64,000 nt of DNA, from positions 868,001-932,000 of the forward strand of contig NZ_CP087585.1 in assembly GCF_022200785.1 (NCBI RefSeq), given 5' to 3'. Positions 26,318 to 60,249 of the stretch are shown piece by piece. Each line of letters starts with the position of its first letter. Within the stretch, counting starts at the first letter, position 1. The notes beneath the pieces are model-generated. The model had not been told where the DNA came from, made no database searches, and saw only the letters and a list, made by a program, of their open reading frames with translations. A program made the position numbers and the translations under genes. Origin of the DNA: Pedobacter mucosus (GTDB lineage: Bacteria; Bacteroidota; Bacteroidia; Sphingobacteriales; Sphingobacteriaceae).

Positions 26318-26749
26318 TTAGTTTAAACATGCATTTTGATGAAGCCAAAAATCTGAAAAAGATTGAAGACAGATAATTAAATCCAAGTAACTTGATGGTT
26401 TGGTAACATAAGCATTGGCACCAAATTGTAAGGACAACTTAATATCTTTAGGTTCTGCAGAAGTCGAAAAAAGCACCACTGGTACATACCTTAAATAAAT
26501 ATTATCTCTAATTTCCTTTAAAATTTCAATACCTGAAATTCCGGGTAAGTTAAGATCAAGCAGAATCAATTTAGGTTTCTGCTTAATCTCTGCGAGTTGG
26601 TGCAAAATACTAATTGCCTCTTTGCCATTATCTATTATTTGAAGGGATGTTGGTTCTGTTAATTCCTGAACAGCGGTTTCCATAATGTAAGCGAAATCCG
26701 TATCATCTTCAACAAAAAATATATCTGTATTTAGCATTAATGCGGACAT
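26318..26749 (-). CDS. Rcp1-like response regulator of the bacteriophytochrome
   Basis: A 143-residue receiver protein of the Rcp1 type. It has acidic residues E14-D15-D16, phosphoacceptor D65 in LILLDLNLPG, T96/S97 in FSTSAEP, and K117 in YVTKPSS. Rcp1-type regulators are the usual partners of phytochrome histidine kinases. Its start overlaps the 3' end of the phytochrome gene by 13 bases, so translation is probably coupled. A second in-frame ATG four codons later, just past the phytochrome stop, is a possible alternative start. No DNA-binding domain is present. Confidence 0.9.
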   Translation of the reverse strand: MSALMLNTDIFFVEDDTDFAYIMETAVQELTEPTSLQIIDNGKEAISILHQLAEIKQKPKLILLDLNLPGISGIEILKEIRDNIYLRYVPVVLFSTSAEPKDIKLSLQFGANAYVTKPSSYLDLIICLQSFSDFWLHQNACLN

Positions 26750-39864: not shown

Positions 39865-39889
39865 CAATATTTTATATTATAAAATATTG
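39865..39889. promoter_or_regulatory. Palindromic operator upstream of the IclR-type gene
   Basis: A perfect inverted repeat with arms CAATATTTTA and TAAAATATTG around TATTA. The 16-base core TTTTATATTATAAAAT (39870-39885) occurs again, identical, upstream of susC (40890-40905). It is centred 24 bases before the -7 element, a position suited to autorepression by the IclR-type product. Confidence 0.72.
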
Positions 39890-39900
39890 ACGAGTTTGCG

Positions 39901-39908
39901 TAACTTTG
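39901..39908 (+). promoter_or_regulatory. Candidate -7 promoter element of the IclR-type gene
   Basis: TAACTTTG fits TAnnTTTG exactly and lies 23 bases before the ATG at 39932. The place where a -33 element would be is occupied by the palindrome, so the regulator probably overlaps RNA polymerase there. Confidence 0.5.
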
Positions 39909-39931
39909 AATTACCATTTACTTATCTTTTT

Positions 39932-40663
39932 ATGATTCAAGTCATCCATCGTGCATTCGACATTTTAGAGTTTATTGGCAAAGAGCCTGATAAACCAAAA
40001 GTGCTTGGCGAAATCGCTCAAGCTTTAAACCTAAATCCGGGAACTTGCGCTAATATCATTAAAACGATGACATCAAGGAAGTATGTAGAGAAAGTCGATC
40101 ATCAAAAAGGATATGTTCTCGGGTCGGCTGCTTATAACTTAACTGGTAATGAGGGCTATAGAAAAGGTTTAATTGATGTTTCCAAGCCTTATATGGAGCA
40201 ATTAACAAAAGAATTAAACGAAAATTCCGAGTTATCTGTATTACAGAATGATCTTCGTTTAGTTTTACTCAGGGTAAAAAGTGATCATGATATCCAAGCA
40301 AGAACCGCATCAGAAAAGAGAGCTTATGACACCGCAGCTGGAAGAATCATGCTAGCATGTTTAAGTGAATCAGAAATTGAAGCATTTGTACATAAATATG
40401 GTTTACCGAAAGAAGAGGAATGGAAAGAAGCCAAATCTCTGTCAACTTTTTTTGTAGAAATATCAAAAATAAAAACAGCTCAATACGCTATTCAAATCAG
40501 CGTAAATCAGATTGTTGGTGTTGCAGTTCCTTTAATTAAAAATGAAAAAATTATTGGATGTTTAGGTATGTATATGCCTACGTATCGTTATGACGACCTT
40601 GGTCATGACAAAATTTTGAAAACCATTATCGCAACTGGCAATGCGATAAACGAAAAACTTTAA
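39932..40663 (+). CDS. IclR-family transcriptional regulator of the carbohydrate locus
   Basis: 243 residues from the ATG at 39932. The frame can be extended to a TTG at 39887, but that codon lies in the palindromic operator and the extension is not family-like. Residues about 1-65 form the winged HTH (VIHRAFDILEFIG ... LGEIAQALNLNPGTCANIIK ... KVDHQKGYVLG). About 75-240 form the IclR effector-binding domain (YDTAAGRIMLACLS, AVPLIKNEKIIGCLGMYMPTYR). IclR proteins often sense breakdown products of sugar acids; KdgR, the pectin regulator, is one. The gene precedes susC, and the same palindrome lies upstream of both, so it most likely controls itself and the downstream utilisation genes. Whether it activates or represses is unknown. 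Confidence 0.9.
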   Translation: MIQVIHRAFDILEFIGKEPDKPKVLGEIAQALNLNPGTCANIIKTMTSRKYVEKVDHQKGYVLGSAAYNLTGNEGYRKGLIDVSKPYMEQLTKELNENSELSVLQNDLRLVLLRVKSDHDIQARTASEKRAYDTAAGRIMLACLSESEIEAFVHKYGLPKEEEWKEAKSLSTFFVEISKIKTAQYAIQISVNQIVGVAVPLIKNEKIIGCLGMYMPTYRYDDLGHDKILKTIIATGNAINEKL

Positions 40664-40887: not shown

Positions 40888-40906
40888 AATTTTATATTAT
40901 AAAATT
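40888..40906. promoter_or_regulatory. Palindromic operator upstream of susC
   Basis: Perfect arms AATTTTA / TAAAATT around TATTA. The core TTTTATATTATAAAAT is identical to that upstream of the IclR-type gene. It lies immediately upstream of the -33 element of the susC promoter, where a bound regulator could contact RNA polymerase. Confidence 0.72.
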
Positions 40907-41050: not shown

Positions 41051-44000
41051 ATGAGTATGAAAAAATTTCTATTACTCTTAATTTTTCCGTTCCTGATTGT
41101 TCAGTTTACCAAGGCTCAAACCCGAGTGCTTAAGGGAAAAATTACAGATGTACGATCAGGTGAGACCTTACCTGGAGTAAACATTTCTATAAATAATGGA
41201 CCGCGAGTAATAAGTGATACTAATGGAAATTACTCCATCAATTTGCCGGCAAATAATAGTGGTACTATTTCCGCATCATTTATCGGTTACCAGACAAAAA
41301 CTACCACTATTGGCACTCAAACTCAAATTAATTTCGCTTTAACCAGTTCCATCGAAGATCTTAATGATGTTGTTGTTGTAGGTTACGGTGTAATTAAAAA
41401 ACCAGATGTTACTGGTTCTATTGCTCAGGTTAATATTGCAGATATGTTAAAAGCACCGGTTAAGTCATTTGATGATGCACTTGCCGGACGCGTTGCCGGA
41501 GTAACAGTTTCTTCGAATGATGGTCAGCCTGGTTCTACAAACAATATTGTTATTCGTGGAAACAACTCTGTAACACAGGATAATACACCTTTATATGTAA
41601 TAGATGGTTTCCCGATAGATAATCCAGATAATAATATTATCAACCCGGAAGAAATAGAATCGATAACAATTTTAAAAGATGCCTCATCTACTGCAATTTA
41701 TGGTTCTAGGGGAGCAAATGGTGTAATTCTCATTACCACTAAACGTGGAAAGATTGGAGATCCTGTGGTTAAGCTAAATAGTTATGTAGCCGTTCAAGAT
41801 GTTACTCACAGGGAAAATATGATGGATCCCTATGAATTTGTGCGTTTGCAAAATGATATTGATCCGGTATCTACAGCCTTGGTTTACTTTGCCGATGGTA
41901 AAACCTTAGAATCTTATCGAGGTGTACCCGGTGTTGATTTTCAGGATGCTTTATACCGCCAGGCGTTTATGCACAGTAATAATCTTTCTATCAGTGGAGG
42001 AACCGAGAAAACGAGATATAGTATTTCAGCTTCTGTTGTCGGACAAGGTGGTGTGATTATCAATTCAGATTTTGGCAGATATCAAGGTCGGGTAACCTTG
42101 GATCAAGACGTAAATGCTAAATTAAAAGTAGGTATAAATGCAAATTATAGCAGCATTAACATTACTGGTACAACGCCTTCATCAAGCACCGCCCAAATCA
42201 ATGCAAGTACCAATTTAATGTATAGCGTTTGGGGCTACAGACCAATTAGTAGTGGAAACATCGACTTGTTGAATGAACTATTTGATCCAGAAATAGATGA
42301 AACTGTTAATTATAGATTCAATCCGATCGCCTCAGCAAATAACGAATACCGTAGAAACGTAACCAATAACATTATTGCAAATGTTTATGCCGACTATGCA
42401 ATTACTCCAAAATTAAAATTGCGTGTAACTGGTGGCTTAAATAATAATCAAAACCGGAGTGAAAGTTTTAATAATACACAAACTCGTTCTGGAAGTCCGT
42501 TTGGACCACTAGGAGTTAATGGGGTAAACGGTGGAATTGCTTATCGCCAGGTAAACAATTGGGTGAATGAAAATACTTTAACTTATAATAACAATTTCAA
42601 CAAAAATAACAGCTTAAATGTGTTGGTTGGTGGTACTCTGCAAGGTATTAATGCTACATCTTATGGTTATACTGCAACTGCTGTTCCAAATGAAAATTTA
42701 GGCATTTCTGGTCTTGATGAAGGTTTGCCAAGAAGTATAACATCCTCTCAAACAGGATCAAAATTGGCATCTGGCTTAGCACGTGTTAACTATAATTTCA
42801 TGTCGAAGTATTTATTTACGGCTACTGTTCGGGCAGATGGGTCTTCTAAATTTAGAGAAAATAACAAATGGAGCTATTTCACCTCTGGTGCATTTGCATG
42901 GAGAATGAGTGATGAGCCTTTTATGAAAAAATTAAAGTTTATAAATGATGCAAAGCTGAGGATTAGCTATGGTGAAACAGGGAACAACCGAATCGGAGAT
43001 TTTTCTACTTATTCAACCTTTATTATAGAGCCAATGGCCGCTTATGCATTTAATAACAGCATTATAAAAGGCATTATTCCATCCGCCATTGGCAATCCGG
43101 GTTTGAAATGGGAAACTACAGCCACCACAAATATTGGGTACGACTTATCTATGTTTAACGACAGGATCGGAATTACCATCGACGCTTATCGTAAAACAAC
43201 TTTTGATTTATTGTTAAATGCATTATTGCCTACTACAACCGGTTATGCAAATGCCTTTAAAAATATCGGTAGGGTACGGAATCAAGGATTAGAAATCACT
43301 ATTAATACCGTTAATATTAAGAACAAAAACTTCAGTTGGTCAACAAATTTTAACATCAGTTTTAACCAGAATAAGTTAATGGGCTTGGCTGAAAACCAAG
43401 AATCGATACAAACTCCTATTGTTTGGGATAGAAGATATACAGGTTTGCCGGTGTATGTTGCGAAATTAGATAATCCAATTTCGCAGATGTATGGTTTCGT
43501 TTGGGATGGTATTTATCAGTTTGAAGATTTTGATAAATTACCAGATGGAAGATACACGCTTAAAGCAAACGTTGTAAATAATGGCAGCGCAAGAACTGCC
43601 GTACAACCGGGTGATATAAAATATAAAGATATTAATGGAGATGGCGTGGTAAATACATTGGATCAAACGCAAATTGGAAGAGCTTATCCAATTCATGTTG
43701 GCGGTTTATCTAATAACATCAGCTACAAAAATTTTGATCTAAATTTTTTCTTGCAATGGTCTTATGGTAATGATATCATCAATGCAAACCGATTAATATT
43801 TGAAGGAAACTCATCAGCTTCAATTAATTTAAATCAATATGCAGAATACGCAGATCGCTGGACACCAACTAATCCGAGTAATACTTTACATCGGGTAGGC
43901 GGACAAGGGCCAGCTTATTACTCGAGTAGAATTATTGAAGATGGATCTTACATTCGTTTAAAAACGGTGGCCTTAGGTTATAATTTCGGAAAACAAGTTT

Positions 44001-44185
44001 TGCAAAGCATTAAGATTAAAGCTTTAAGAGCATATGTATCTGGTCAGAACTTATATACCATAACAGGTTATAGTGGTCCGGATCCAGAAGTTTCTGTAAA
44101 AAATTCTACGTTAACACCGGGCTTCGATTATTCTGCCTATCCAAGAGCAAGAACAATAACTTTTGGAATTAATGCCACATTTTAA
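41051..44185 (+). CDS. SusC/RagA-family TonB-dependent outer-membrane receptor (first pair)
   Basis: A 1044-residue protein with a signal peptide (to about residue 22, FTKAQ), then a carboxypeptidase-regulatory-like domain (GKITDVRSGETLPGVNISI). The TonB box region DLNDVVVVGYG follows, then the plug (IRGNNSV, PLYVIDGFPIDNPDNNI, ILKDASSTAIYGSRGANGVI) and a beta-barrel ending TITFGINATF. With the SusD that follows it forms the lidded transporter importing oligosaccharides across the outer membrane. A second start, ATG two codons later, is equally plausible. It is the first gene of a long plus-strand unit, with a promoter and the shared palindrome upstream. The 387-base gap to the regulator gene is regulatory DNA. 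Confidence 0.95.
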   Translation: MSMKKFLLLLIFPFLIVQFTKAQTRVLKGKITDVRSGETLPGVNISINNGPRVISDTNGNYSINLPANNSGTISASFIGYQTKTTTIGTQTQINFALTSSIEDLNDVVVVGYGVIKKPDVTGSIAQVNIADMLKAPVKSFDDALAGRVAGVTVSSNDGQPGSTNNIVIRGNNSVTQDNTPLYVIDGFPIDNPDNNIINPEEIESITILKDASSTAIYGSRGANGVILITTKRGKIGDPVVKLNSYVAVQDVTHRENMMDPYEFVRLQNDIDPVSTALVYFADGKTLESYRGVPGVDFQDALYRQAFMHSNNLSISGGTEKTRYSISASVVGQGGVIINSDFGRYQGRVTLDQDVNAKLKVGINANYSSINITGTTPSSSTAQINASTNLMYSVWGYRPISSGNIDLLNELFDPEIDETVNYRFNPIASANNEYRRNVTNNIIANVYADYAITPKLKLRVTGGLNNNQNRSESFNNTQTRSGSPFGPLGVNGVNGGIAYRQVNNWVNENTLTYNNNFNKNNSLNVLVGGTLQGINATSYGYTATAVPNENLGISGLDEGLPRSITSSQTGSKLASGLARVNYNFMSKYLFTATVRADGSSKFRENNKWSYFTSGAFAWRMSDEPFMKKLKFINDAKLRISYGETGNNRIGDFSTYSTFIIEPMAAYAFNNSIIKGIIPSAIGNPGLKWETTATTNIGYDLSMFNDRIGITIDAYRKTTFDLLLNALLPTTTGYANAFKNIGRVRNQGLEITINTVNIKNKNFSWSTNFNISFNQNKLMGLAENQESIQTPIVWDRRYTGLPVYVAKLDNPISQMYGFVWDGIYQFEDFDKLPDGRYTLKANVVNNGSARTAVQPGDIKYKDINGDGVVNTLDQTQIGRAYPIHVGGLSNNISYKNFDLNFFLQWSYGNDIINANRLIFEGNSSASINLNQYAEYADRWTPTNPSNTLHRVGGQGPAYYSSRIIEDGSYIRLKTVALGYNFGKQVLQSIKIKALRAYVSGQNLYTITGYSGPDPEVSVKNSTLTPGFDYSAYPRARTITFGINATF

Positions 44186-44232
44186 CTTAATATTAATCTG
44201 ATGATTCAAAAGAATCTTATAAAATAGAATAT

Positions 44233-46038
44233 ATGAAAACGAAAATATTTATTCTCATCATGCTCTTAACAGGAAGTTTGAGTTCTTGTAAAAAATTTCT
44301 TGAAGTGCTGCCGAAAGATTTTGTTTCCCCAGAAAATTATTTCAATAACGAGACTGAATTAAATACCGCCTTAGTTGGGGTTTATGATGTAATGGGAAGT
44401 GCAGCACTGTATGGAGAAATATACTGGGCTCAGTTTGAAGTGGCCACAGATGAAAGTTTTTTCAGACAATCTACCACCACAATCGGTGTGCAGGTATATA
44501 ATTACGATTCAAATAATAGTTCCATTGCAGGTATTTGGCGAGCACTTTACACAGGGATAGAGCGGGCAAACATCTTGTTGGCCAATATCGATAAACCAGT
44601 AATGAGTGATGCGAATAGAAATGTAGTTAGAGGTGAAGCACTATTTTTGAGAAGTTACTACTACTTTTTATTGGCTTCTAATTTTGGCGATGTGCCATTA
44701 ATCTTGACACCTACAAAATCAGTTAATAATCCAGAGATTGCCCGCACACCTATTAAAGATGTGTATGCACAAATATTAGCCGATATGACAACGGCAGAAG
44801 GTTTAGTAAAGCCAATTACAGCTTATAATTATTCTGGAAGGGTTAGCAAAAGTGCTGTGCAAGGGATTTTGGCGAGGGTTTGTTTAAAAATGGCCGGCGA
44901 ACCTTTGAAGGATGTAAGTAAATATGCAGATGCTGCTAAATGGGCGAAGATGGTTATCACATCAGGCATTCATAGTTTAAATCCATCTTATGAGCAAATT
45001 TTCATCAACGAATCTCAGGATTTATACGACGTTAAAGAAGCCATTTGGGAAGTTGAATTTCAAGGAAATCTTTTACAAGCCGGAGTAAATGAAACTGGAA
45101 GATTAGGCGTTTTAGGCGGCTTGGCTGGAACAAATGCTGAAATTGGAAACAGTTACGGCCAATGGAACGGAACCCGTGTTTTCTATGATATTTTTACCCC
45201 TCAGGATTTAAGAAGGGATTGGAACATTGGCTCCTATTATTATAGCGGAGCTACCAAAACTAAAGTATTTCAAACCGTTGCAGAAGCAAAAAGTGTAGGC
45301 AAATGGCGAAGAGAATACGAACTTTTAACTCCCAAAAATCCAAATTATAATGGCACCAATTTCCCGCTTTTAAGGTATGCAGATGTGTTACTTATGTATG
45401 CTGAAGCCACAAATGAAATTGCTGGTCCCAATGCAGAAATTATTAATTATATAAATTTGGTTAGACAAAGAGGAGCTGGAAAAGTAATTAATGGAACCAC
45501 TGTTTATGCTATAAATGTTACTAATGGTGGTTCTGGTTATACCACTGTACCAACAGTAACGTTGAACGGAGGCGGTTTTACCAACGCGGCCACTGCAACG
45601 GCGACTATACTTAATGGCCGCGTAAACGGAGTAGTGGTAACCTTGCCAGGATCATTTTATAGAACCCCGCCAACTGTAACGATTTCGGGTACAACCGGAA
45701 CTGGTGCTGTGGCTGTTGCCACCTTATCTACCCCAACAGATGCTGATTTAACTGCGGCACAAACGGCGTCAAAAGATGCATTGAAACTTGAAATTATTAA
45801 CGAAAGATCTCGCGAACTTTGCTATGAAGGGTTAAGAAGAGGCGACTTAATCAGATGGGGGATTTTTATAGAAAGAATGAAAAATGCGGCATCATCTGCA
45901 ACATTAAGGTATATAGCCGCTTTCAAATATGCATCGAGGCCAGGTGATAACATCAGTGAAAAACACAATTTATTCCCGATTCCGCTTTCAGAAATATCGT
46001 TGAATAAACTTCTTACCCAAAATCCAGGATGGCAATAA
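44233..46038 (+). CDS. SusD/RagB-family glycan-binding lipoprotein with inserted beta-repeat module
   Basis: A 601-residue protein, longer than the second SusD in this window (485). The lipobox is LTGSLSSC (C18-19 region). The SusD fold is seen from KFLEVLPKDFVSPENYFN, the TPR-like helices (RGEALFLRSYYYFLLASNFGDVP), LLRYADVLLMYAEATNEI, and late INERSRELCYEGLRRGDLIRW with the C-terminal LFPIPLSEISLNKLLTQNPGW. Between the YAEA helix and the INERSREL motif, about residues 418-501 are an extra glycine/threonine-rich stretch with two GY/FYRTPPTV-like turns (GGSGYTTVPTVTL, FYRTPPTVTISG), unusual for SusD. It binds the polysaccharide at the cell surface and closes over SusC. Confidence 0.94.
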   Translation: MKTKIFILIMLLTGSLSSCKKFLEVLPKDFVSPENYFNNETELNTALVGVYDVMGSAALYGEIYWAQFEVATDESFFRQSTTTIGVQVYNYDSNNSSIAGIWRALYTGIERANILLANIDKPVMSDANRNVVRGEALFLRSYYYFLLASNFGDVPLILTPTKSVNNPEIARTPIKDVYAQILADMTTAEGLVKPITAYNYSGRVSKSAVQGILARVCLKMAGEPLKDVSKYADAAKWAKMVITSGIHSLNPSYEQIFINESQDLYDVKEAIWEVEFQGNLLQAGVNETGRLGVLGGLAGTNAEIGNSYGQWNGTRVFYDIFTPQDLRRDWNIGSYYYSGATKTKVFQTVAEAKSVGKWRREYELLTPKNPNYNGTNFPLLRYADVLLMYAEATNEIAGPNAEIINYINLVRQRGAGKVINGTTVYAINVTNGGSGYTTVPTVTLNGGGFTNAATATATILNGRVNGVVVTLPGSFYRTPPTVTISGTTGTGAVAVATLSTPTDADLTAAQTASKDALKLEIINERSRELCYEGLRRGDLIRWGIFIERMKNAASSATLRYIAAFKYASRPGDNISEKHNLFPIPLSEISLNKLLTQNPGWQ

Positions 46039-46064
46039 GATCTATAAATTTTAATTCAAATCGC

Positions 46065-46964
46065 ATGAAAAAAATAATATTATATACAAGCTTGGCTGCA
46101 ATTATCTGCATAACAGGCTGTAAAAAATTAAATGTTGATGAGCCTGAGTTTGATGTAAGCTTGAGTAAAACAACGTATAAGGTTGGTGAAGCTGTAAATT
46201 TTACTTTTGCGGGCAATCCGGATTTAATCACCGTATACAGAGGTATTCCTGGAGAAAACTATGATTTTAGAAATAGAATTGATGCAAATGGAATTCCTCA
46301 ACTTAATTTTACGACACTAATTCAGAATCCTGGCGAATTAAATACATTAAGGCTGAAAGCATCAACAGATTTTGCAGGGAAGTATGATGCAACAGGCATT
46401 GCTTCGGCAACCTGGACAGATATCACTTCGAGAGCGATTCTTTCTACCGGTACAGATAATACAGCATCGGGAACCATCGATCTTTCTGATTTAAAAGTTG
46501 CTGGCAAACCATTATATCTCGCTTATACCTATAGTGGATATGCGCATGCAACTTTAAAGCAGCCCTCTTGGTTTATTAGAACATTTAATGTAAACAACGT
46601 TTTGCCAGATGGAAGAACTTCTTTAATTTCTGCCATTGGGCAAGTTGGGTGGATTGGCGTAGATGTGAAAAATCCGACGGTAGTTTGGGCCGTTCCAACA
46701 ACGGGGCAGGCCGCAATTAATGGTACAGATCCGGCTGCAATTAACCAAGATAACGAGGACTGGCTAATTAGCAAACCGTTTAACTTAAATGCAGTTTCTG
46801 CTGATATTGGCTTAGGATTAAAAACCTCAACTACAACATTAAATTCTTATAATTATGTTTACACAACTGCTGGTAGTTATACAATTACTTTTATTGCGGC
46901 AAATGCAAGTCGCGATGATAAAAAAGAAATCGTAAAACAGTTAACCATTACTATTGAGCCATAA
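46065..46964 (+). CDS. DUF5017 surface lipoprotein (SusE/F-like position)
   Basis: 299 residues from the ATG at 46065. The frame is open to 46029, but that start overlaps the SusD gene and lacks the signal. The lipobox AIICITGC precedes KKLNVDEPEFDVSLSKTTYK. An Ig-like beginning (GEAVNFTFAGNPDLITVYRG) is typical of DUF5017. A probable second beta-sandwich domain follows, and the C-terminus is a PKD-like strand (YTTAGSYTITFIAANAS ... QLTITIEP). Lipoproteins in this position after susD usually sit on the cell surface and bind the target glycan. The sequence itself gives no specificity. Confidence 0.88.
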   Translation: MKKIILYTSLAAIICITGCKKLNVDEPEFDVSLSKTTYKVGEAVNFTFAGNPDLITVYRGIPGENYDFRNRIDANGIPQLNFTTLIQNPGELNTLRLKASTDFAGKYDATGIASATWTDITSRAILSTGTDNTASGTIDLSDLKVAGKPLYLAYTYSGYAHATLKQPSWFIRTFNVNNVLPDGRTSLISAIGQVGWIGVDVKNPTVVWAVPTTGQAAINGTDPAAINQDNEDWLISKPFNLNAVSADIGLGLKTSTTTLNSYNYVYTTAGSYTITFIAANASRDDKKEIVKQLTITIEP

Positions 46965-46987
46965 TTATAACCAAATTTAAAATTTAT

Positions 46988-48073
46988 ATGAATTTAAATC
47001 GAACATTCATCTCTTTATTTTGCCTCTCACTTACGTTGTTTTCTTGTAGTGTTAAAGTAAGAAACCCGCAATCATCCATTAATAAAAATCAGGTAAAACT
47101 GGCAATGAAGAAAACCTTCGATTGGCAAATCGCCAATCCGGTAGTGGGCAATACTAAAAATGCAGATGATTGGGCAAGAAGCGTTTTTTATTCGGGAATT
47201 ATGCGTGCTTACGAAACCACAAAAGATAAGGTTTATTTAAATGAAGCATTGCGATGGAGCGAAAGCCTCAACTATAAACTAGGACTGCGATATAGACATG
47301 CCGACGACCACACACGAGGACAAACATTTTTAGGAATTTATGCAATCAATAAAGACAAAAAAGCGATTTCGGCTATAAAATCCACTTTTGATTCAATTTT
47401 ATTAGCTCCAAAACCTGGAAGAGAAGAGTGGTGGTGGTGCGATGCTTTGTTTATGTCGCCACCAGTTTTAGTACGCTTAGCAGAAGCGACGGGCGATCAG
47501 AAATACAACGATTTCATGAATAAAATGTGGTGGGATACAACAGACTTTTTGTTTGATAAGGAAGAAGATTTGTTTTACCGCGATAAAAGTTTTTTCGATC
47601 GCAGATCGCCCAATGGGAAAAAAGTTTTTTGGTCTAGAGGAAATGGTTGGGTAATGGGTGGCCTGGTGCAGGTATTAGAGCATTTGCCAAAAACCAACCC
47701 AGCGTACAAACGCTTTGAAGAATTGTATTTAAAAATGGCAGTTAAAGTCGCTTCACTACAGCAAGCAGATGGTTTATGGCGACCAAATCTGGCTGATCCG
47801 GCAGAGTATACAAATAAAGAAACCAGTGGTTCAGGGTTTTTCGTATTCGCTTTAACATGGGGAATCAACAATGGCTATTTAGATAAAGCGACTTATTTGC
47901 CAATTGTTTTAAAAGGTTGGAAAGGGTTAAATGAACAGGTAACGCCTGATGGGAAATTAACCTGGGTACAAAAAATTGGTTCGAAACCAGAAACGGTGAA
48001 ACCAGATGACAACCAAGAGTATGGAACAGGTGCTTTTTTAATGGCTGGTACCGAGCTTTTAAAACTTAAATAA
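46988..48073 (+). CDS. GH105 (GH88-clan) unsaturated uronyl hydrolase
   Basis: A 361-residue lipoprotein-like protein (lipobox LTLFSC) with an (alpha/alpha)6-barrel pattern. Family marks are WARSVFYSGIMRAYE, RHADDHTRGQTFLGIY, WWWCDALFMSPPVL (with the Asp expected to protonate the double bond), FWSRGNGWVMGGL and ETSGSGFFVFALTWGIN. GH105/GH88 enzymes hydrate and release the 4,5-unsaturated uronic acid that polysaccharide lyases leave at the non-reducing end. It directly precedes the PL8 lyase gene with 3 bases between stop and start, so lyase and hydrolase form a consecutive pair. Unsaturated glucuronyl versus galacturonyl preference cannot be read from motifs. Confidence 0.9.
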   Translation: MNLNRTFISLFCLSLTLFSCSVKVRNPQSSINKNQVKLAMKKTFDWQIANPVVGNTKNADDWARSVFYSGIMRAYETTKDKVYLNEALRWSESLNYKLGLRYRHADDHTRGQTFLGIYAINKDKKAISAIKSTFDSILLAPKPGREEWWWCDALFMSPPVLVRLAEATGDQKYNDFMNKMWWDTTDFLFDKEEDLFYRDKSFFDRRSPNGKKVFWSRGNGWVMGGLVQVLEHLPKTNPAYKRFEELYLKMAVKVASLQQADGLWRPNLADPAEYTNKETSGSGFFVFALTWGINNGYLDKATYLPIVLKGWKGLNEQVTPDGKLTWVQKIGSKPETVKPDDNQEYGTGAFLMAGTELLKLK

Positions 48074-48076
48074 TAG

Positions 48077-50086
48077 ATGAAGTTAATAAAATATGGTTTG
48101 TTGGTTTTGTTGTTCCTGGGTCTTTCGCAGACCTGGGCGCAACAACCTTTTCAAAAGGTGATTATTAATTATAAAAAATTCCTGATTGAACAAGGTCAAA
48201 CCCCTACAGACAGCTTAAAAAAGTGGATTAATACTTTACAACAAAATGGACAATGGGCAGATATTGATTACAAAGACAAAGGCCCATCAAGGTGGAAAAC
48301 AATTGTTCATTTATATAGGCTTAACAAAATTTCTTTAGCCTACCAAAAACCGGGGAATGCATTCTATAAAAATGAAAATGTTTGGAATAAAATTATATCA
48401 GCTTCTAATAATTGGATCGAAAACAAATACAAGAATCCAAATTGGTGGCAAAACGAAATTGGAGTACCTCAGCAATGGAGGGATATCATAACTTTAAATG
48501 AGAAATCATATACTAAAGAGCAATTAGCGAATGCATTAAGTATTTTATTTCAATACAAGCTTAAAGAAACTTTTACAGGAGCCAATTTAGTATGGAGTGC
48601 CGATTTAGCGATGCATTATGGTTTGTTTACCTCGAATGAAGAATTGGTTTCAAAGGCTAGAAATTTAATTATTAAAGAAGTTAAAATCAGCGATGGTGAA
48701 GGAATCAGGCCAGATTTTAGTTACCACCAACATGGTGCCCGGTTGCAGGCACACCATTATGGAAGTTCATTTTTAACAGAAAATATTCGTTTAGCCTATG
48801 AACTGCAGCAAACACCTTGGCAATTTCCTGCATCAAAAATAACTATTTTAAATAATTATCTCATTAACGGATGGCAATGGATGGCGAGAGGAATTTACAT
48901 TACACCGGCCACAATCGATCGTGCAATCAGTAGATCTGAAGTACTTAAAATAGACTTATCAGGATTACTGGAATATCTAATTCAACTCTCTTTACCTTCA
49001 GAAACAGCCGAATTAAAAGCAATGTTGGCTGTTCAAAAAGGCGGAACACAAACACTAAATGGATACCGTTATTTTCCATATTCTGACTTTGGAGCTTACC
49101 AACAAGCAAGTTTCAGTTTCTTTGTGAAAACCATTTCTACCCGTACAGAGATTACTGAAATTATTAATGGAGAGAATCAAAAAGGTGCGTTTCTGAATCT
49201 GGGAAACACTTATCTGTTAAGAAATGGAAATGAATATTATAATTTGATGCCTTTTTGGGATTGGAAACATTTGCCCGGAACCACTAATTTTACAAGTGCG
49301 AAAACTATAAACAAACAGCGGTTTGTTGGCGGCATCACTACAGCAGCTGATGGATTGAGTGTTATGGATTTTGAAACGACTAACGGTGTTGCCACTCTTA
49401 ATGGAAGTAAATTTTGGGCAGTGCATCAAGGTAAAATATTCTGTTTAATTGCAGGCTTAAACTTATCAGGAAGCACCGATTCTATTTATACAACTTTAGA
49501 ACAATCGAGGTTGCAGGGAACGGTTTTGATTAATTCTTCCAAAAATATTTTGACCGAACAAACATCAATAACTAAAGGCGTTAAATGGGTTCGGCATAAT
49601 AATTTTACTTACATCCCATTAAGTGGTTCATCGCTTAGCGTAAGTAACTTGAAGAAAACCGGTAATTGGCTAAGTATTGCCAAATCAGGAACTCCAGATC
49701 AAATCTCAGAAAATGTTTTTCAAGTGGTAGCAACACATCAAAATAATTCTTCAGCCGCTTATTTAATCGATGGAAATACGGAAGCAACGGCGCTGGATAA
49801 AATGATTTCCAAACCTGACTGGAAGATTTTAAGGAACAATAGAAACTGCCAGGCAATTGCATTTAACGATGGTTCAATTTTTATGTCCTTCCATCAAAAT
49901 GATGTGCTGAAGTATTTAAAAAACTCAATTACGGTTAATCAACCTTGTTTGCTTATTGTAACTAAAAACTCAATTTATGCTAGTGATCCACTTTATAAAG
50001 GTGGAGAATTAGTTGTGATCTTGAATGGACGAACCATAAATTTAGCGTTGCCTGCAGACGGGACAACAGTAAAATACGACTTATGA
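48077..50086 (+). CDS. PL8-family polysaccharide lyase (chondroitinase AC / hyaluronate / xanthan lyase type)
   Basis: A 669-residue protein with a signal peptide ending near TWAQQ. The N-terminal alpha-toroid holds TGANLVWSADLAMHYGL (N170), GIRPDFSYHQHGARLQ (H219) and HYG (Y228), then IDRAISRS (R282, R286). From memory of Pedobacter heparinus chondroitinase AC (H225, Y234, R288, R292), the spacings 9, 63 and 4 are the same here, so the catalytic set is intact. The C-terminal beta-sheet domains include STRTE, INGENQKGAF and MPFWDWKHLPGTT. PL8 enzymes cleave beside a uronic acid in chondroitin, hyaluronan or xanthan. The neighbours (rhamnosidase, no sulfatase, two de-acylating enzymes) argue for another polymer. 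Its 3' end overlaps the esterase gene by 4 bases. Confidence 0.93.
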   Translation: MKLIKYGLLVLLFLGLSQTWAQQPFQKVIINYKKFLIEQGQTPTDSLKKWINTLQQNGQWADIDYKDKGPSRWKTIVHLYRLNKISLAYQKPGNAFYKNENVWNKIISASNNWIENKYKNPNWWQNEIGVPQQWRDIITLNEKSYTKEQLANALSILFQYKLKETFTGANLVWSADLAMHYGLFTSNEELVSKARNLIIKEVKISDGEGIRPDFSYHQHGARLQAHHYGSSFLTENIRLAYELQQTPWQFPASKITILNNYLINGWQWMARGIYITPATIDRAISRSEVLKIDLSGLLEYLIQLSLPSETAELKAMLAVQKGGTQTLNGYRYFPYSDFGAYQQASFSFFVKTISTRTEITEIINGENQKGAFLNLGNTYLLRNGNEYYNLMPFWDWKHLPGTTNFTSAKTINKQRFVGGITTAADGLSVMDFETTNGVATLNGSKFWAVHQGKIFCLIAGLNLSGSTDSIYTTLEQSRLQGTVLINSSKNILTEQTSITKGVKWVRHNNFTYIPLSGSSLSVSNLKKTGNWLSIAKSGTPDQISENVFQVVATHQNNSSAAYLIDGNTEATALDKMISKPDWKILRNNRNCQAIAFNDGSIFMSFHQNDVLKYLKNSITVNQPCLLIVTKNSIYASDPLYKGGELVVILNGRTINLALPADGTTVKYDL

Positions 50087-51003
50087 AATTGAAATTTAAA
50101 CTGATCTTAATTTTCTTGTTACTTTTTGCATTTGCCAAAGCACAAACTGTTATTCCGTTATATAATGGACCAATTCCCGGCGCCATAAAAGACGAAAGTT
50201 ACGTAGAAAAACAACACATTGGTGAAGATGGTAAGCGTTATCTTTCTTTCGTAAGCAAGCCAACCATTGCAGTATTTCAACCTCCAAAAGGGAAAGCAAA
50301 CGGTACATCTGTAATTATTTGTCCTGGTGGCGGTTATCAGGTTTTAGCAGTTGAACATGAAGGGGAAGAACTGGCGAAAAGATTTAACGATGCTGGCATA
50401 ACGGCTTTTGTTTTAAAATATCGTTTGCCAAGCGCCGCAATAATGACTGATAAAAGCATGGCTCCATTACAAGATTTACAACAGGCAATCTTGATCGTGA
50501 GACGAGATGCTGCAAAATGGAATCTAAATCCCGCGAAAATTGGTGTATTGGGCGCATCTGCTGGTGGACATTTAGCTGCAACTGCCGGAGTTCATTTTGA
50601 GAAATCTTATATCGAAAATCCACAAAAAATAAGTTTGAAACCAGATTTTATGATTCTACTTTATCCGCGTATTTCTATGGAATTAGGATCAGAATCGAGC
50701 TCGGCAAAAAATTTACTTGGCCCAGATTTTAAGCCAGCATTAATGAATTTTTTCTCATTAGATAAACAAGTGACAACCAATACGCCTCCAACATTTCTAT
50801 TGCATGCTAGTGATGATCCAGTTGTGAAAGTAGAACATAGCATTTTGTTTTATCAGGCTTTAGTAGAAAAGAAGGTGCCAGCAGAAATGCATATTTATAA
50901 AAGTGGCGGACATGGTTTTGGCTTAAATAATAAAACAAGTACCGACGATTGGTTTCTAATCCTTCTCCATTGGTTAAAAGATAGTGAGCTAATAAAAGGT
51001 TAA
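50083..51003 (+). CDS. Secreted alpha/beta-hydrolase esterase (acetylxylan-esterase-like)
   Basis: A 306-residue protein with a signal peptide (FAKAQ, about 1-21). The oxyanion-hole loop is CPGGGYQ at 80-86. The nucleophile is S159 in GVLGASAGGHLAA. The acid is in HASDDPVVKVEHS and the His in KSGGHGFGL. This is the BD-FAE/acetylxylan-esterase-like branch common in Bacteroidota polysaccharide loci. It probably removes acetyl or other ester groups from the target glycan in the periplasm. Its ATG overlaps the PL8 stop (ATGA), so the two are translationally coupled. Exact acyl group unknown. Confidence 0.87.
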   Translation: MKLKFKLILIFLLLFAFAKAQTVIPLYNGPIPGAIKDESYVEKQHIGEDGKRYLSFVSKPTIAVFQPPKGKANGTSVIICPGGGYQVLAVEHEGEELAKRFNDAGITAFVLKYRLPSAAIMTDKSMAPLQDLQQAILIVRRDAAKWNLNPAKIGVLGASAGGHLAATAGVHFEKSYIENPQKISLKPDFMILLYPRISMELGSESSSAKNLLGPDFKPALMNFFSLDKQVTTNTPPTFLLHASDDPVVKVEHSILFYQALVEKKVPAEMHIYKSGGHGFGLNNKTSTDDWFLILLHWLKDSELIKG

Positions 51004-51048
51004 GATTTATAACAAATTTTCAAATTCTATAAAACAGTCAAAACATTA

Positions 51049-51687
51049 ATGGGCAATATAATTTTAACATCTGACGATTTTGGACTTAGTAAAATATACA
51101 ATCGTGAGATTTTATTGGCTATTGAATCGAATTTATTAAGCTCCGTTTCGGTAATGGTAAATAATCAGATTGCCACCCAACAACAACAAGTTGACGCTTT
51201 ACTTGCATTGGCTTTAGAAAAAAATATTAGTTTGGGTTTGCATTTGGAAATTGGGTTTGATGATGGTGATATAAAAGAACTTTGCTCAAACCAATGGAAT
51301 ATTTTTGTGGCGGTTTTGGGAATTAAGCCAGATTATATCGACATTCATAAAGATCATTTGTTTGCCAAATACTTCAACGAAGTTGCTCATTTCTGCATTA
51401 ATAAAAAGGTTCCTTTTAGAAAATATAAGCTTACTACAGTTAAACTTAGCGCACCAGATGATTTATATATCGCCTCAACAAATAGTCTTTCAAACTTAGA
51501 GGTAAAATTAAATAAACTCCAGGCGAACCATACTTTAGAAGTCGTTTTTCATATTGGTATGTATGATGAAAATGTTGTTTCTTCGCTAAATAGTGAAAGG
51601 GCAGAAGATAGAGGCAAGCTAGAATGGACGCATAAAATCATCAACAAGCTTGGAATTAAAGTGGTTAATTACAATTTTTTAAAGTGA
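51049..51687 (+). CDS. YdjC/ChbG-type carbohydrate deacetylase, short form
   Basis: A 212-residue protein without signal peptide, hence cytoplasmic, unlike its neighbours. It opens with ILTSDDFGLSK (D9/D10 metal-binding pair) and continues with LGLHLEIGF and a DIHKDHLF metal-site His cluster, typical of the YdjC family. ChbG/YdjC proteins remove acetyl groups from N-acetylated oligosaccharides such as chitobiose. At 212 residues it is shorter than the usual roughly 250-300. The segment between the HLE and the DIHKDH motifs is compressed, though the metal ligands remain. In this locus it would act late on imported acetylated oligosaccharides. Whether it targets N-acetyl or O-acetyl groups is open. 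Confidence 0.82.
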   Translation: MGNIILTSDDFGLSKIYNREILLAIESNLLSSVSVMVNNQIATQQQQVDALLALALEKNISLGLHLEIGFDDGDIKELCSNQWNIFVAVLGIKPDYIDIHKDHLFAKYFNEVAHFCINKKVPFRKYKLTTVKLSAPDDLYIASTNSLSNLEVKLNKLQANHTLEVVFHIGMYDENVVSSLNSERAEDRGKLEWTHKIINKLGIKVVNYNFLK

Positions 51688-51691
51688 TAAG

Positions 51692-52975
51692 ATGAAAATC
51701 AATACCATGTTAAAAAAAGTTTCTCTTTTAATTTGTTGTTGTATAAGCATCTCTCAAGCTTATGCAACAAATTATTATTGCGATCCAATTAAAGGAAATA
51801 TGCGCAATAAAGGAAATCAGTCTGCTCCTTGGAGTAGTTTAGATTCTGTTTTCATTACTAAAAAAGCGGTGTTGCCCGGTGATACTATCTTTTTAAGAAA
51901 TGGTTATCATGGATTTCCAAAAGTTCAGGGAAACATCAATGCTCAAGAATATATTGTAATTGTTCCAGAAAAAAATCAACATCCAACGGTTAAAAAAATA
52001 GAAATTGCTAATGCTGAACGTTGGAAAATTATAGGTTTAAAAGTGAGTCCAGAGCTCATTAAATCTTATGAAAAAGGAGATTTTGTTGGTATAAAATCAA
52101 GTGCAAAATTTATTGAAATTGATCGATTCATCATTTCCTCTACCGATAGCGCTGTTAATAATTGGAGTGTGAATGAAATCCAGAATAAACTTGGAATCGG
52201 GATTAGGATTGAGGGTTCAGATTGCACCATCTCCAATACGCAAATTACTCAGGTTCAATTCGGAATTGTAGTAAGTAAACCTGCAGTTCGGTCAAATATA
52301 AATCATAACATCATTTATGGTTTTGCGAACGATGGTATCCGCGGCTTATCTAATAATTCTCGGTTTGAATACAATACTATTTCAGGTTCATACAGTGTTG
52401 ATGATAATCATGATGATGCTTTCCAGAGTTGGAGTACTGATGATGCAGGGAAAGTTGGTGCAGGGAAAATTGAAAATGTAGTATTTAGCCACAATTTTGT
52501 TATCAGTCAGCTCGACCCAGCACAGCCATTTAAGCAAATTACAGGCATGCAGGGCGTAGGAAACTTTGATGGCTTTTTTGAAAATTGGCTTGTTGATGGA
52601 AATGTGATTATTACCGATATGTGGCATGGAATTGCTTTTTACGGCGCTATTAATTGTAAAATCATCAATAATGTCATAGTAAAGAATCCATTAAATATTT
52701 TGCCACAAACGCCTTGGATTGCCATTTATAATCATAAGAAATTAGGCCCAAGTAGCGAAAATGAAATCAGTAATAATTTTACTTCGACTATAGGTGAGAA
52801 AAAAGGCGTGGCAATTTTAAAAAACAATTCGGAGATTCCTGTTGCGGAATATGCAAAATATCTAAAAAATTGGAAAGCATTTGATGCCACATTAATCTCA
52901 AATAAATCTGATTCTCTTTTTAAGAAAGTGGAAACTTTAAAAGCAATTATCAAAAGCCAGAAGAGAAGGATTTAA
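51692..52975 (+). CDS. Secreted right-handed parallel beta-helix protein, probable lyase or glycan-binding enzyme
   Basis: A 427-residue protein with signal peptide MLKKVSLLICCCISISQAYA (alternative starts 51692 or 51707). It is a chain of short beta-helix coils: NYYCDPIKGN, GDTIFLRNGYH, IIGLKVSP, GIRIEGSDCTISN, GIRGLSNNSRFEYNTI, ISGSYSVDDNHDDAFQSWS, NVVFSHNFVI, WLVDGNVIITD, CKIINNVIV. The Asp-rich DDNHDDAFQSW turn is a possible metal or active site. Parallel beta-helices in such loci are mostly polysaccharide lyases (PL1, 3, 6, 9, 31) or GH28-type hydrolases, but none can be assigned from the motifs I see. It starts 4 bases after the deacetylase gene stop, so it belongs to the operon. Confidence 0.75.
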   Translation: MKINTMLKKVSLLICCCISISQAYATNYYCDPIKGNMRNKGNQSAPWSSLDSVFITKKAVLPGDTIFLRNGYHGFPKVQGNINAQEYIVIVPEKNQHPTVKKIEIANAERWKIIGLKVSPELIKSYEKGDFVGIKSSAKFIEIDRFIISSTDSAVNNWSVNEIQNKLGIGIRIEGSDCTISNTQITQVQFGIVVSKPAVRSNINHNIIYGFANDGIRGLSNNSRFEYNTISGSYSVDDNHDDAFQSWSTDDAGKVGAGKIENVVFSHNFVISQLDPAQPFKQITGMQGVGNFDGFFENWLVDGNVIITDMWHGIAFYGAINCKIINNVIVKNPLNILPQTPWIAIYNHKKLGPSSENEISNNFTSTIGEKKGVAILKNNSEIPVAEYAKYLKNWKAFDATLISNKSDSLFKKVETLKAIIKSQKRRI

Positions 52976-53062
52976 GATTAATAGCTTAAATATTAGCTTA
53001 TGCAAGCATTAAACTAACAATAAGAAACGATAATTTTCATCACAGCTGAAAAAAATATACGA

Positions 53063-55429
53063 ATGAAAAAACTAAATTTCTTTTTTTTCTTATTGGTTAT
53101 TGCGATAAGTTTAAAGGCACAAAATATTGCGGTTAATCCTTCACTTTTAAAGCAAACTTGGTCTGCTTTTTGGATTACTTGCCCAAACGTAGCACAACGA
53201 GATTATGGTGTGTTTCATTTTCGAAAGGACGTTAAACTTACCGCAATTCCCAAAAAATTTATTGTCCACGTATCAGCAGATAACCGATATAGGTTGTTTG
53301 TAAATGGAACAGCAATTTGTAATGGTCCGGCTAGGGGAGATTTATACAATTGGTATTTTGAAACGCTGGATCTTGCTCCTCATTTAAAACTAGGAACAAA
53401 TATAATAGCTGCTCAAGTATGGAATATGGGCATATTGGCACCAGTTGCGCAAATTTCTAATCAAACAGCATTTTTAATTCAAGGAGATACCGAAGCAGAA
53501 AAAATGGTAAATTCAGATGCTTCCTGGAGTGTAATGGAGAATAACGCTTATCGCCCAACTTCGTTAAATAATGGTGAACGTTTAAAAACTTACATGGTTA
53601 TTGGCCCAGGAGATAACGTAAATGGAAGTTTATTCCCTTGGAACTGGGAAACATCAACCGATAAAAAATTCAATTGGAAAAAGGCTGTTCAAATCGCAAA
53701 TCCGGTAACCGCTGGTTATGGTACCGATAACCTTTGGACATTAGTGCCACGTAACATTCCTTTAATTACCGAAAAACTACAGCGATTAAATAAGATTGCA
53801 AGGTTTAAAGGGTTAAAAAGCATAAGCTCTTTTTTAACAGGAAAATCGCCTTTAAATATTCCAGCAAATAAAAAAGTAACGATTTTAATAGATCAATCTT
53901 ATAATGCAGTTGCTTATCCAGAGATAATTTTTACTCAGGGAAAGGGCGCTTCCGTAAAAATGACATATGCAGAAGCGCTTTTTAAAGATGGTGTTAAGGG
54001 GAATAGAAACGATATTGTTGGAAAAGAAATCATTGGGAATTATGATATTTTTAATCCAGATGGAGGAAAAAAACGATTGTTTCGACCTTTATGGCTTCGA
54101 ACTTATCGCTATATTCAGCTAGAGATTGTTACAAAAAATGAACCTTTAATCATTGATGATTTCTATGGAATGCAAACAGGTTATCCTTTTAAACAAGTTG
54201 CAAGCTTTACAAGTAATGATACTTCTTTAAAAGAAATCTGGGATATTGGATGGCGCACTGCTCAACTTTGTGCTGGAGAAACGTATTATGATTGTCCATA
54301 TTATGAGCAATTGCAATATGAAGGGGATACCAGAATCCAATCCCTTATTTCATTATATGTAACTGGTGATGATAAATTAATGCGAAAGGCGCTGTTGGAT
54401 TTTTATCATTCAAGAGTGCCAGAAGGATTAACCCAAGGGCGATATCCGAGCAATCGGCTTCAGGTAATTCCTCCTTTTTCTTTATACTGGGTTTCTATGG
54501 TTAACGATTATATGTTCCACAGAAATGATGATGAATTTTTAAAACAATTTTTGCTTCCCATTCAGGAAATATTACTGTGGTACGAAAATAATCTGGATCA
54601 AAAGAAACAAATGTTAGGACCAATGAAATGGTGGAATTTTGCGGATTGGAATTTAGCCTTTGATTTCGGTGTTCCAGACGGTGCTACGGATGGAAATTCT
54701 TCCGTAATTTCTTTGCAATATGCTTACACTTTAAATCAAGCAGCATCAATTTTTAATCACTTTGGGAAACCCGAAATTGCTGCTCATTATAGTAAATTGG
54801 CTAATGAAATTAGTGATGCAACCTATAAGCTTTGTTTCGATGCAAATAAAGGTGTAATGGCAAACACACCGTTAAAAAATAGTTTTAGTCAACACGCAAG
54901 CATTATGGCCGTACTTGCAAATGCTATCCCTTTATCAAAAGAAAAAGCAGTAATGACAAAGGTTTTAACCGATTCCAGTTTAAGTCAGGCAACATTCTAT
55001 TACCGTTTTTACTTAACGCTAGCTTTAAAAAAAGCGGGTATGGGCGATCTTTATTATAGTCAATTAAAGCCCTGGCGGGAAATGATTGCTAATGGTTTAA
55101 CCACATTTGCAGAGAATCCTGATCCTACTAGATCAGATTGCCATGCTTGGAGTGCGAGCCCAAATTACGATTTTTTAGCGACCATTTGTGGCATTTTGCC
55201 AGGTTCCCCAGGCTTCAAAAGCGTATTAATTCAACCGGCAATGGGCGAGTTGACATCGGTTGCTGGAGAAATGCCACATCCAGCGGGATCAATTAAAGTT
55301 TCATTTAAAAGAATAGGAAAAGGAGTTGAAGGAACGGTTAACCTGCCTAAAAATATAAGCGGAAAAATGATTTGGAATGAAAAAGAAATTATGCTTCATG
55401 AAGGAGAACAAAAGATCCGTTTTAATTAA
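53063..55429 (+). CDS. GH78-family alpha-L-rhamnosidase
   Basis: A 788-residue protein with a signal peptide (SLKAQN, about 1-20). An N-terminal carbohydrate-binding sandwich (VHVSADNRYRLFVNGTAI) precedes an (alpha/alpha)6 catalytic barrel and a C-terminal sandwich. The active-site row YYDCPYYEQLQYEGDTR places D410, E415 and D422 with the spacing I recall from Bacillus RhaB (D567, E572, D579). E684 in TFAENPDPTRSDCHAWS matches the second acid (E841 there). The enzyme releases terminal alpha-L-rhamnose from glycans. It is the last gene of the plus-strand unit, 87 bases behind the beta-helix gene, and is followed by a terminator. Rhamnose in the substrate distinguishes this locus from glycosaminoglycan loci. 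Confidence 0.92.
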   Translation: MKKLNFFFFLLVIAISLKAQNIAVNPSLLKQTWSAFWITCPNVAQRDYGVFHFRKDVKLTAIPKKFIVHVSADNRYRLFVNGTAICNGPARGDLYNWYFETLDLAPHLKLGTNIIAAQVWNMGILAPVAQISNQTAFLIQGDTEAEKMVNSDASWSVMENNAYRPTSLNNGERLKTYMVIGPGDNVNGSLFPWNWETSTDKKFNWKKAVQIANPVTAGYGTDNLWTLVPRNIPLITEKLQRLNKIARFKGLKSISSFLTGKSPLNIPANKKVTILIDQSYNAVAYPEIIFTQGKGASVKMTYAEALFKDGVKGNRNDIVGKEIIGNYDIFNPDGGKKRLFRPLWLRTYRYIQLEIVTKNEPLIIDDFYGMQTGYPFKQVASFTSNDTSLKEIWDIGWRTAQLCAGETYYDCPYYEQLQYEGDTRIQSLISLYVTGDDKLMRKALLDFYHSRVPEGLTQGRYPSNRLQVIPPFSLYWVSMVNDYMFHRNDDEFLKQFLLPIQEILLWYENNLDQKKQMLGPMKWWNFADWNLAFDFGVPDGATDGNSSVISLQYAYTLNQAASIFNHFGKPEIAAHYSKLANEISDATYKLCFDANKGVMANTPLKNSFSQHASIMAVLANAIPLSKEKAVMTKVLTDSSLSQATFYYRFYLTLALKKAGMGDLYYSQLKPWREMIANGLTTFAENPDPTRSDCHAWSASPNYDFLATICGILPGSPGFKSVLIQPAMGELTSVAGEMPHPAGSIKVSFKRIGKGVEGTVNLPKNISGKMIWNEKEIMLHEGEQKIRFN

Positions 55430-57015: not shown

Positions 57016-57023
57016 ATTTGAGA

Positions 57024-60158: not shown

Positions 60159-60216
60159 ATAGATATTTGGTTTAAAAGGTTAGCCGAGAGGTCGGAATCC
60201 CAAGATAAAAATTGTA

Positions 60217-60243
60217 AAACCACTACTGCATAAGTAGTGGTTT
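60217..60243 (-). terminator. Strong hairpin between lyase-like gene and susC
   Basis: A perfect 11-bp stem AAACCACTACT / AGTAGTGGTTT around a 5-base loop, starting 7 bases after the lyase-like stop. On the minus strand it is followed by TTTTACAATTTTT. It works as a terminator or partial attenuator. I see no second promoter before susC, so partial read-through is the simpler reading. Confidence 0.7.
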
Positions 60244-60249
60244 AAAATT

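Follow-up and report, generated by a model that had tools for sequence, protein, structure and literature searches.

In a 64,000-nucleotide stretch of the Pedobacter mucosus genome (the window), we found a polysaccharide utilization locus (PUL) of ten plus-strand genes that joins a PL8 polysaccharide lyase to a GH105 unsaturated glucuronyl hydrolase, a GH78 alpha-L-rhamnosidase, a carbohydrate esterase and a YdjC-type deacetylase. With a probability of roughly 0.6, this IclR-linked PUL targets an O-acylated, unsulfated polymer in which alpha-L-rhamnose occurs together with a 4-linked hexuronic acid, probably glucuronate. A preliminary description, made without database searches, had listed nine plus-strand genes (41051-55429), and gene calls and profiles bore out their coordinates, order and families; the unit, however, starts one gene earlier, with an IclR-family regulator gene at 39887-40663 (Table 1). 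The locus comprises a SusC/SusD pair, co-directional carbohydrate-active enzymes and a regulator, as is usual for a PUL, and each of the nine genes except that encoding the beta-helix protein had family profile support. The intergenic gaps in the nine-gene unit, taken from gene coordinates, range from -10 to 87 bases, with overlaps of 10 bases between SusD and DUF5017 and of 4 bases between PL8 and the esterase, and a spacing of 3 bases from GH105 to PL8; a simple scan found no terminator downstream. The operon contains neither the GH88 nor the sulfatase that accompany the lyase of a glycosaminoglycan (GAG) locus. PL8 was also the only lyase family recognized, with none of the PL24, PL25, PL28 or PL40 lyases that mark an ulvan locus together with sulfatases. 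The lack of a sulfatase had been described before and was confirmed, as the home genome (a single contig of 4.93 Mb, in which this PL8 is the only one) encodes four above the Pfam cut-off (seven listed), none of them inside the window.

The gene order IclR-SusC-SusD-DUF5017-GH105-PL8-esterase-YdjC-beta-helix-GH78, all on one strand, was syntenic in three further genomes (G293, G191 and G416), so that the operon is known from four Pedobacter species, P. mucosus included, which rules out a chance juxtaposition of the genes. The upstream flanks, compared by gene length, were alike in G191 and G416 and different in G293 and the window, and the ten-gene block has thus been kept in at least three settings. 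The close form of SusD (>80% identical) was found in 4 of the 145 genus genomes searched, counting its own; in G416, SusD and DUF5017 are read as a single 828-residue frame. Identities of the window proteins to those of the sister loci were 79–81% for IclR, 80–81% for SusC, 82–84% for SusD, 71–74% for DUF5017, 74–75% for GH105, 52–54% for PL8, 67–68% for the esterase, 67% for YdjC, 51–52% for the beta-helix protein and 70–72% for GH78. PL8 and the beta-helix protein thus diverge most among the four loci (51–54% vs 67–84% for the other genes), as if they were tracking variation in the polymer.

The PL8 enzyme has a complete architecture, with PF08124, PF02278 and PF02884 all above cut-off (domain scores of 161, 110 and 29 bits). 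When compared to structures in the PDB, it was most similar to chondroitinase AC (241 bits), followed by the mannuronate lyase 7r2x (79 bits), hyaluronate lyases (70–71 bits) and xanthan lyases (57–65 bits), and it scored 275 bits against the NCBIfam equivalog model of chondroitinase AC, for which the cut-off is 1000. A tree built from 42 PL8 proteins resolved into clades A (21 rows), B (14), C (4) and D (3), with the window enzyme and its three orthologues grouped together (100/99) within clade B (100/100, on a stem of 1.07 changes per site). Chondroitinase AC clade A (100/100), clade C and clade D were all separate from it, the branching order among the clades being poorly supported (63/31); the rows L002, G257b, G353c_9 and G162_6 have long branches or an odd composition. 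The PL8 of locus L069 in Pedobacter heparinus (G353) is identical at all 700 positions to 1hm2, the crystallized chondroitinase AC of this organism, and falls in clade A. The window enzyme shares 29% identity with it and 27–31% with clade A as a whole. A published PL8 tree is reported to split by specificity first and only then by taxonomy (PMC7911691).

The active site of chondroitinase AC has catalytic Asn, His, Tyr, Arg and Glu residues. Asn175, His225, Tyr234, Arg288, Arg292 and Glu371 (1hm2 numbering) were retained in 14/14 clade-B rows, and the window enzyme also retains N374, W126 and W127. The segment around the Trp427 loop, which we take to bind substrate in chondroitinase AC, measures 23–24 residues in clade B and lacks a tryptophan in all 14 rows, against 32–34 residues and a tryptophan in 21/21 rows of clade A; the loop itself is shorter by 8–11 residues throughout clade B. 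A further 30 columns are conserved in clade B (at least 13 of the 14 rows) yet different in clade A. This pattern argues for unchanged chemistry combined with another binding site, and the window PL8 probably has a new specificity. The enzyme neither groups with the proven chondroitinase AC nor carries its Trp427 loop; clustering with proven chondroitin lyases, which the preliminary description had held against a new specificity, was thus not seen. A class-wide sample of 395 genomes yielded one close PL8 relative (E ≤ 1e-75) beyond the own genome (G546), and the structure model of the enzyme was weak (predicted local distance difference test, pLDDT, 52).

The genes surrounding each PL8 were counted within 10 kb, with GH78 called by profile (in the GH78 family search, no more than two candidates per genome were scored, among the matches listed) and neighbouring GH88, GH105 and sulfatases called by the short motifs RGQAW, RGNGW and C/SxPSR rather than by profiles, the GH88 and GH105 motifs being a choice of our own. 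Clade-A loci L095–L099 have only about 5–6 kb of flank on one side, and L002 is in the tree and absent from the neighbour table. GH105, GH78, the esterase and YdjC were present at 4/4 operon loci and, within these limits, GH105, GH78, an esterase of this type and YdjC were detected at 0/21 clade-A loci. Clade-A loci had GH88 (12/21) or a sulfatase-like gene (12/21), and one or both in 17 of the 21.

PL8 occurs together with GH105 and GH78 in two PL8 clades, and the SusC/SusD pairs differ between them. Besides the operon, this is seen in clade C, whose four rows represent four PL8 genes spread over two loci. In P. heparinus, the locus (L112/L150) encodes PL8, GH105, GH28, GH78, a BD-FAE esterase, GH106, a second GH78, GH130, an epimerase and a long PL8; the locus of the Mucilaginibacter-group genome G162 (L146/L147) reads PL8-SusC-SusD-GH105-GH28 type-GH78, and a long PL8, GH130-like and epimerase-like genes precede this main run (GH28, GH130 and epimerase by eye). 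The GH78 of G162 lies just beyond 10 kb, and the tally therefore counts P. heparinus only. The long clade-C PL8 proteins have 929–958 residues, the P. heparinus form with an F5/8 domain and a secretion tail. Neither clade-C locus was found described in our literature search, which was partial, with most subscription journals outside it. Within clade B, the PL8 genes at three of the nine loci other than the operon, L001 (Mucilaginibacter aquatilis, G146), L052 (G291) and L162 (G546), stand beside a GH89-like gene and also an endonuclease/exonuclease/phosphatase-like gene, both by eye; GH89-type activity is that of an alpha-N-acetylglucosaminidase.

The individual partner enzymes were compared to characterized relatives. 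As PF07470, the Pfam GH88 family, spans both GH88 and GH105, the assignment to GH105 was based on the solved relatives and on the presence of the RGNGW motif and the absence of RGQAW; the WWCDALFM motif, with its catalytic Asp, is kept. The best PDB match was 4ce7, an unsaturated 3S-rhamnoglycuronyl hydrolase active in ulvan breakdown (253 bits, 42.7% identity over 328 positions), followed by 5noa (183 bits; a GH105 member deposited as 'Family 88 glycosyl hydrolase') and then by entries labelled YteR/GH105. The GH78 enzyme was most similar to 2okx RhaB (167 bits) and keeps the 6-hairpin domain, the C-terminal domain, the DCPxYEQ...GD and late AEN...CHAWSA motifs, and the catalytic acidic residues aligned to those of 2okx. 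The YdjC protein gave 27 bits against 7vi8, and its SDDFG, GLHLE and DIHKDH motifs occur in 4/4 operon loci. The beta-helix protein contains a conserved NHDD-x-FQSWS-x-D motif and was found in 4 of 399 family genomes (E ≤ 1e-10), namely its own, G293, G191 and, as a remote match, G093, as well as in the G416 locus. As a single sequence, it had no PDB match at E ≤ 10, and a three-sequence profile matched the lacto-N-biosidase 7v6i (E 0.003) mainly over a short N-terminal stretch, too weakly to assign a function; its single-sequence AlphaFold model was unusable (pLDDT 31).

When a lyase acts at a 4-linked uronate, the non-reducing end is left with an unsaturated uronate, which is exactly the group that GH105 enzymes remove. 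From the gene content we infer cell locations (by eye), the order of reactions and the substrate as follows. SusD and the DUF5017 lipoprotein would bind polymer fragments for import by SusC, and the exported clade-B PL8 would cleave on the C4 side of the uronate, so that the newly formed non-reducing end carries a 4,5-unsaturated uronate. The esterase would strip acyl groups, GH105 would hydrolyze the unsaturated uronate off, and GH78 would take the rhamnose exposed after GH105 or side-chain rhamnose; the beta-helix protein may be a further cutting enzyme, and YdjC may trim the product inside the cell. Given the esterase and deacetylase genes and the lack of a sulfatase, the most parsimonious polymer is acylated and unsulfated, with rhamnose adjoining the uronate, and the simplest one that the operon could finish alone would be an alternating glucuronate-rhamnose chain, i.e. 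an unsulfated, acetylated analogue of ulvan. A more specific proposal is tentative and, taken as a whole, somewhat doubtful: that the clade-B PL8 of the operon is the lyase of a glucuronate-rhamnose polymer bearing O-acetyl groups and no sulfate (a 'desulfo-ulvan' from algae of land or fresh water, or from bacterial capsules), that PL8 was recruited at least twice in the bacterial family (clades B and C) beside GH105 and GH78, and that the beta-helix protein represents a new carbohydrate-active family with one remote match outside the operon.

The acylated uronate-rhamnose substrate of the preliminary description is favoured by the distinctness of clade B, the clade-A neighbourhoods and the clade-C loci; the importer and several other observations weigh against it. 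The next relatives of SusD (53–54%) are found at clade-A PL8 loci with a sulfatase-like gene (G296, G353, G344, G436, G401 and G384), and the nearest SusC proteins outside the operon likewise belong to loci of the chondroitinase AC type, including the proven one of P. heparinus. In the SusC tree, the operon falls in a 25-row group together with such loci and with L103, L109 and L110, which carry GH18-, GH20- and NagA/B-like genes (by eye); these SusC kin and the YdjC gene, resembling N-deacetylases, hint at an N-acetylhexosamine in the polymer. Either the operon took over a GAG-type importer, or the polymer shares a component such as N-acetylhexosamine with GAGs, and it is the latter option that the YdjC gene fits. 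Elsewhere in clade B, 6/9 loci have GH88 by motif, an undercount, since a GH88-like gene in G546 (by eye) was missed, and 0/9 have GH105 or GH78, so that membership of clade B does not in itself point to rhamnose. Changes at the Trp427 loop are not confined to clade B, since clade D and the long proteins of clade C show them too: loop length is kept in clades C and D, with the tryptophan present in 2/4 and 0/3 rows, respectively. Four of the 21 clade-A loci have neither GH88 nor a sulfatase by motif, and the absence of both from the operon is thus not decisive. Finally, chondroitin, hyaluronan and xanthan, given earlier as the PL8 substrates, make an incomplete list, as three published reports describe an exo-acting polymannuronate PL8 (PMC7911691), a broad PL8 active on GAGs, xanthan and alginate (PMC11596371), and one PL8 said to act on heparin/heparan sulfate (PMC11848413).

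Much of this would suit a GAG or GAG-like locus, in which PL8 acts on unsulfated chondroitin, hyaluronan or a bacterial capsule with a backbone of glucuronate and N-acetylhexosamine. GH105 would take the place of GH88, the hexosamine would be deacetylated by YdjC, and a rhamnose side group on a bacterial capsule would be the target of GH78. The similarity of PL8 to chondroitinase AC in the PDB and, under the cut-off, NCBIfam comparisons, the kinship of SusC and SusD to loci of the chondroitinase AC type (the proven one included) and of SusC to GH18/GH20-like loci, the YdjC family gene and the single PL8 of the genome all point this way. We nevertheless regard such a locus as unlikely, given the separate clade and lost loop of PL8, the lack of GH88 and sulfatase, and the absence of GH105 and GH78 from clade-A loci. 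In addition, two of the four operon species, G191 and G293, each hold a separate locus with a clade-A PL8 and GH88 (L070 and L071), making it improbable that the ten-gene operon serves chondroitin there. A plain chondroitin or hyaluronan locus was consequently set aside as the lead explanation on tree, loop and neighbours, and is kept as a rival.

Two rhamnose-containing alternatives appear less probable still. In a gellan or sphingan operon, PL8 would be a gellan lyase, GH105 and GH78 would process the Glc-GlcA-Glc-Rha unit, and the esterases would remove acetyl and glyceryl groups. Gellan is acylated and contains both rhamnose and glucuronate, and the best PDB relative of the GH78, 2okx RhaB, comes from Bacillus sp. 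GL1, a degrader of xanthan and gellan. However, a beta-glucose would have to leave between the GH105 and GH78 steps, and no beta-glucosidase was recognized in the operon (the rest of the genome was not searched); moreover, the gellan-active lyase reported in PMC11848413 belongs to PL33. Gellan, a candidate of the preliminary description, is therefore disfavoured and was dropped as lead. Equally improbable in our view is side-chain trimming in the manner of xanthan lyases, with PL8 removing a terminal group from the 4-linked glucuronate of an acetylated, acetan-like exopolysaccharide or of a plant gum or arabinogalactan cap, GH105 taking the unsaturated glucuronate and GH78 a terminal rhamnose. 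PL8 xanthan lyases do act in this way (PMC10881899), GH105 and GH78 occur without PL8 in a PUL of Maribacter for which arabinogalactan and galactose are reported as inducers (PMC11036162), and the P. heparinus clade-C locus adds GH130 and an epimerase-family gene that would fit a glucose/mannose backbone. Against this, no backbone glucanase, mannosidase or galactosidase was recognized in the operon, the GH130/epimerase pair is absent, and the PL8 similarity to xanthan lyases is low.

For the uronate-rhamnose polymer, a close functional parallel is the ulvan cascade of Formosa agariphila, which likewise applies a lyase, GH105/GH88 and GH78 to a uronate-rhamnose chain; the GH105 of the operon shares 43% identity with the ulvan enzyme 4ce7. 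These three activities are reported to belong to one ulvan pathway, with GH78 taking off rhamnose after its exposure and desulfation, and the ulvan lyases to come from PL24, PL25, PL28 and PL40 rather than PL8 (PMC8511951). A sulfatase is used in ulvan breakdown, where the operon has esterases and no sulfatase. The chondroitinase AC locus of P. heparinus (L069) resembles the operon in PL8 catalytic residues, SusC/SusD subgroup (SusD 54%) and genus, but has a clade-A PL8 with the Trp427 loop and a sulfatase-like gene, and GH105, GH78, esterase and YdjC were not detected within 10 kb. The clade-C loci of P. heparinus and G162 share PL8, GH105 and GH78 with the operon (the former also the BD-FAE esterase) but differ in PL8 clade and SusC/SusD subgroup, in the extra GH28-, GH130- and epimerase-type genes, in the second, long PL8, and, in P. 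heparinus, in GH106; YdjC and a beta-helix partner of the operon type were not detected there. PL8 xanthan lyases (1j0m, 6f2p) have the family and the lyase chemistry at 4-linked glucuronate in common with the window enzyme, but the operon is without xanthan backbone enzymes. CE15-linked PULs with PL8 in Alistipes shahii and Bacteroides intestinalis are also of uncertain target, their authors naming chondroitin or gellan, and are described as carrying GH88, GH2, GH3 and CE15, not GH105 and GH78 (PMC10807430). The same partial literature search returned no report of an operon with PL8, GH105 and GH78 or of PL8 acting on a rhamnose polyuronide. If the proposed substrate is correct, PL8, a family mostly tied to animal GAGs, would also serve in the breakdown of rhamnose-rich acidic polymers, and caution would be due before naming every Pedobacter PL8 a chondroitinase AC, as the tree drawn from this bacterial family showed three further clades with different neighbours. 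Since the operon, syntenic in four species, has a single lyase, a single GH105 and a single GH78, the question can be addressed with three purified proteins.

Table 1. The ten-gene PUL and its palindromic sites, in window positions.
Feature	Position	Strand	Basis and remarks
Palindrome copy with 2 mismatches	39868..39886	.	Directly before listed IclR start; possible auto-regulatory operator
IclR-family regulator	39887..40663	+	PF01614 + PF09339; TTG start as listed, in-frame ATG at about 39932
Perfect 19-base palindrome AATTTTATATTATAAAATT	40888..40906	.	163 bases before SusC start; candidate IclR operator
SusC, TonB-dependent glycan importer	41051..44185	+	TIGR04056, 882 bits; placed in SusC tree
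SusD, surface glycan-binding lipoprotein	44233..46038	+	PF07980/PF14322
DUF5017 lipoprotein, probable surface glycan-binding protein	46029..46964	+	PF16409, 191 bits
GH105 unsaturated glucuronyl hydrolase	46988..48073	+	PF07470, 265 bits; lipoprotein by eye (LFSC)
PL8 polysaccharide lyase, clade B	48077..50086	+	Three PL8 Pfam domains, tree, residues; signal peptide by eye
Alpha/beta-hydrolase carbohydrate esterase (BD-FAE, PaeX-like)	50083..51003	+	Profile matches
YdjC-type deacetylase, short form, 212 aa	51049..51687	+	PF04794, 58 bits; without signal peptide by eye (cytoplasmic)
Right-handed beta-helix protein	51692..52975	+	PF13229, 20 bits, under its cut-off; exported by eye
GH78 alpha-L-rhamnosidase	53063..55429	+	PF17389/PF17390 (87 + 40 bits)

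The gap between the IclR and SusC genes contains little conserved DNA apart from the stretch around the perfect palindrome. This palindrome recurs unchanged in G191 and G416 and with a single mismatch in G293, at 148–153 bases before SusC in these genomes. One place in the own genome matches it at ≤1 mismatch, and a reversed, non-complemented control also matches once per strand, so the case for the palindrome is one of conservation and position, not of rarity. The window holds three matches at ≤3 mismatches versus a mean of 0.83 after shuffling (4 of 100 shuffles reach 3), and the other loci hold two at ≤2 mismatches in 1.95 Mb, a count that includes the copy-holding G293 and G191 loci. The IclR-proximal copy is poorly kept, G293 having a 3-mismatch copy at -51 and G191 and G416 none at ≤3 mismatches. 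The arrangement fits a candidate IclR operator, with the function of both sites putative.

Elsewhere in the window, a second SusC/SusD pair on the minus strand (55558-61023) is convergent to the operon and is followed by a small alginate_lyase2 protein of the PL7 type (60250-61023); this is likely a separate polyuronide locus directly adjoining the operon. A gene at 207-22490, followed by PorP/SprF and OmpA genes, encodes a surface protein of 7427 residues that contains repeats of the Calx-beta, cadherin-like and Big_9 types as well as a CHU_C signal for type IX secretion. A bacterial phytochrome histidine kinase (PHY, GAF, PAS_2, HisKA) is encoded on the minus strand at 26737-28968.

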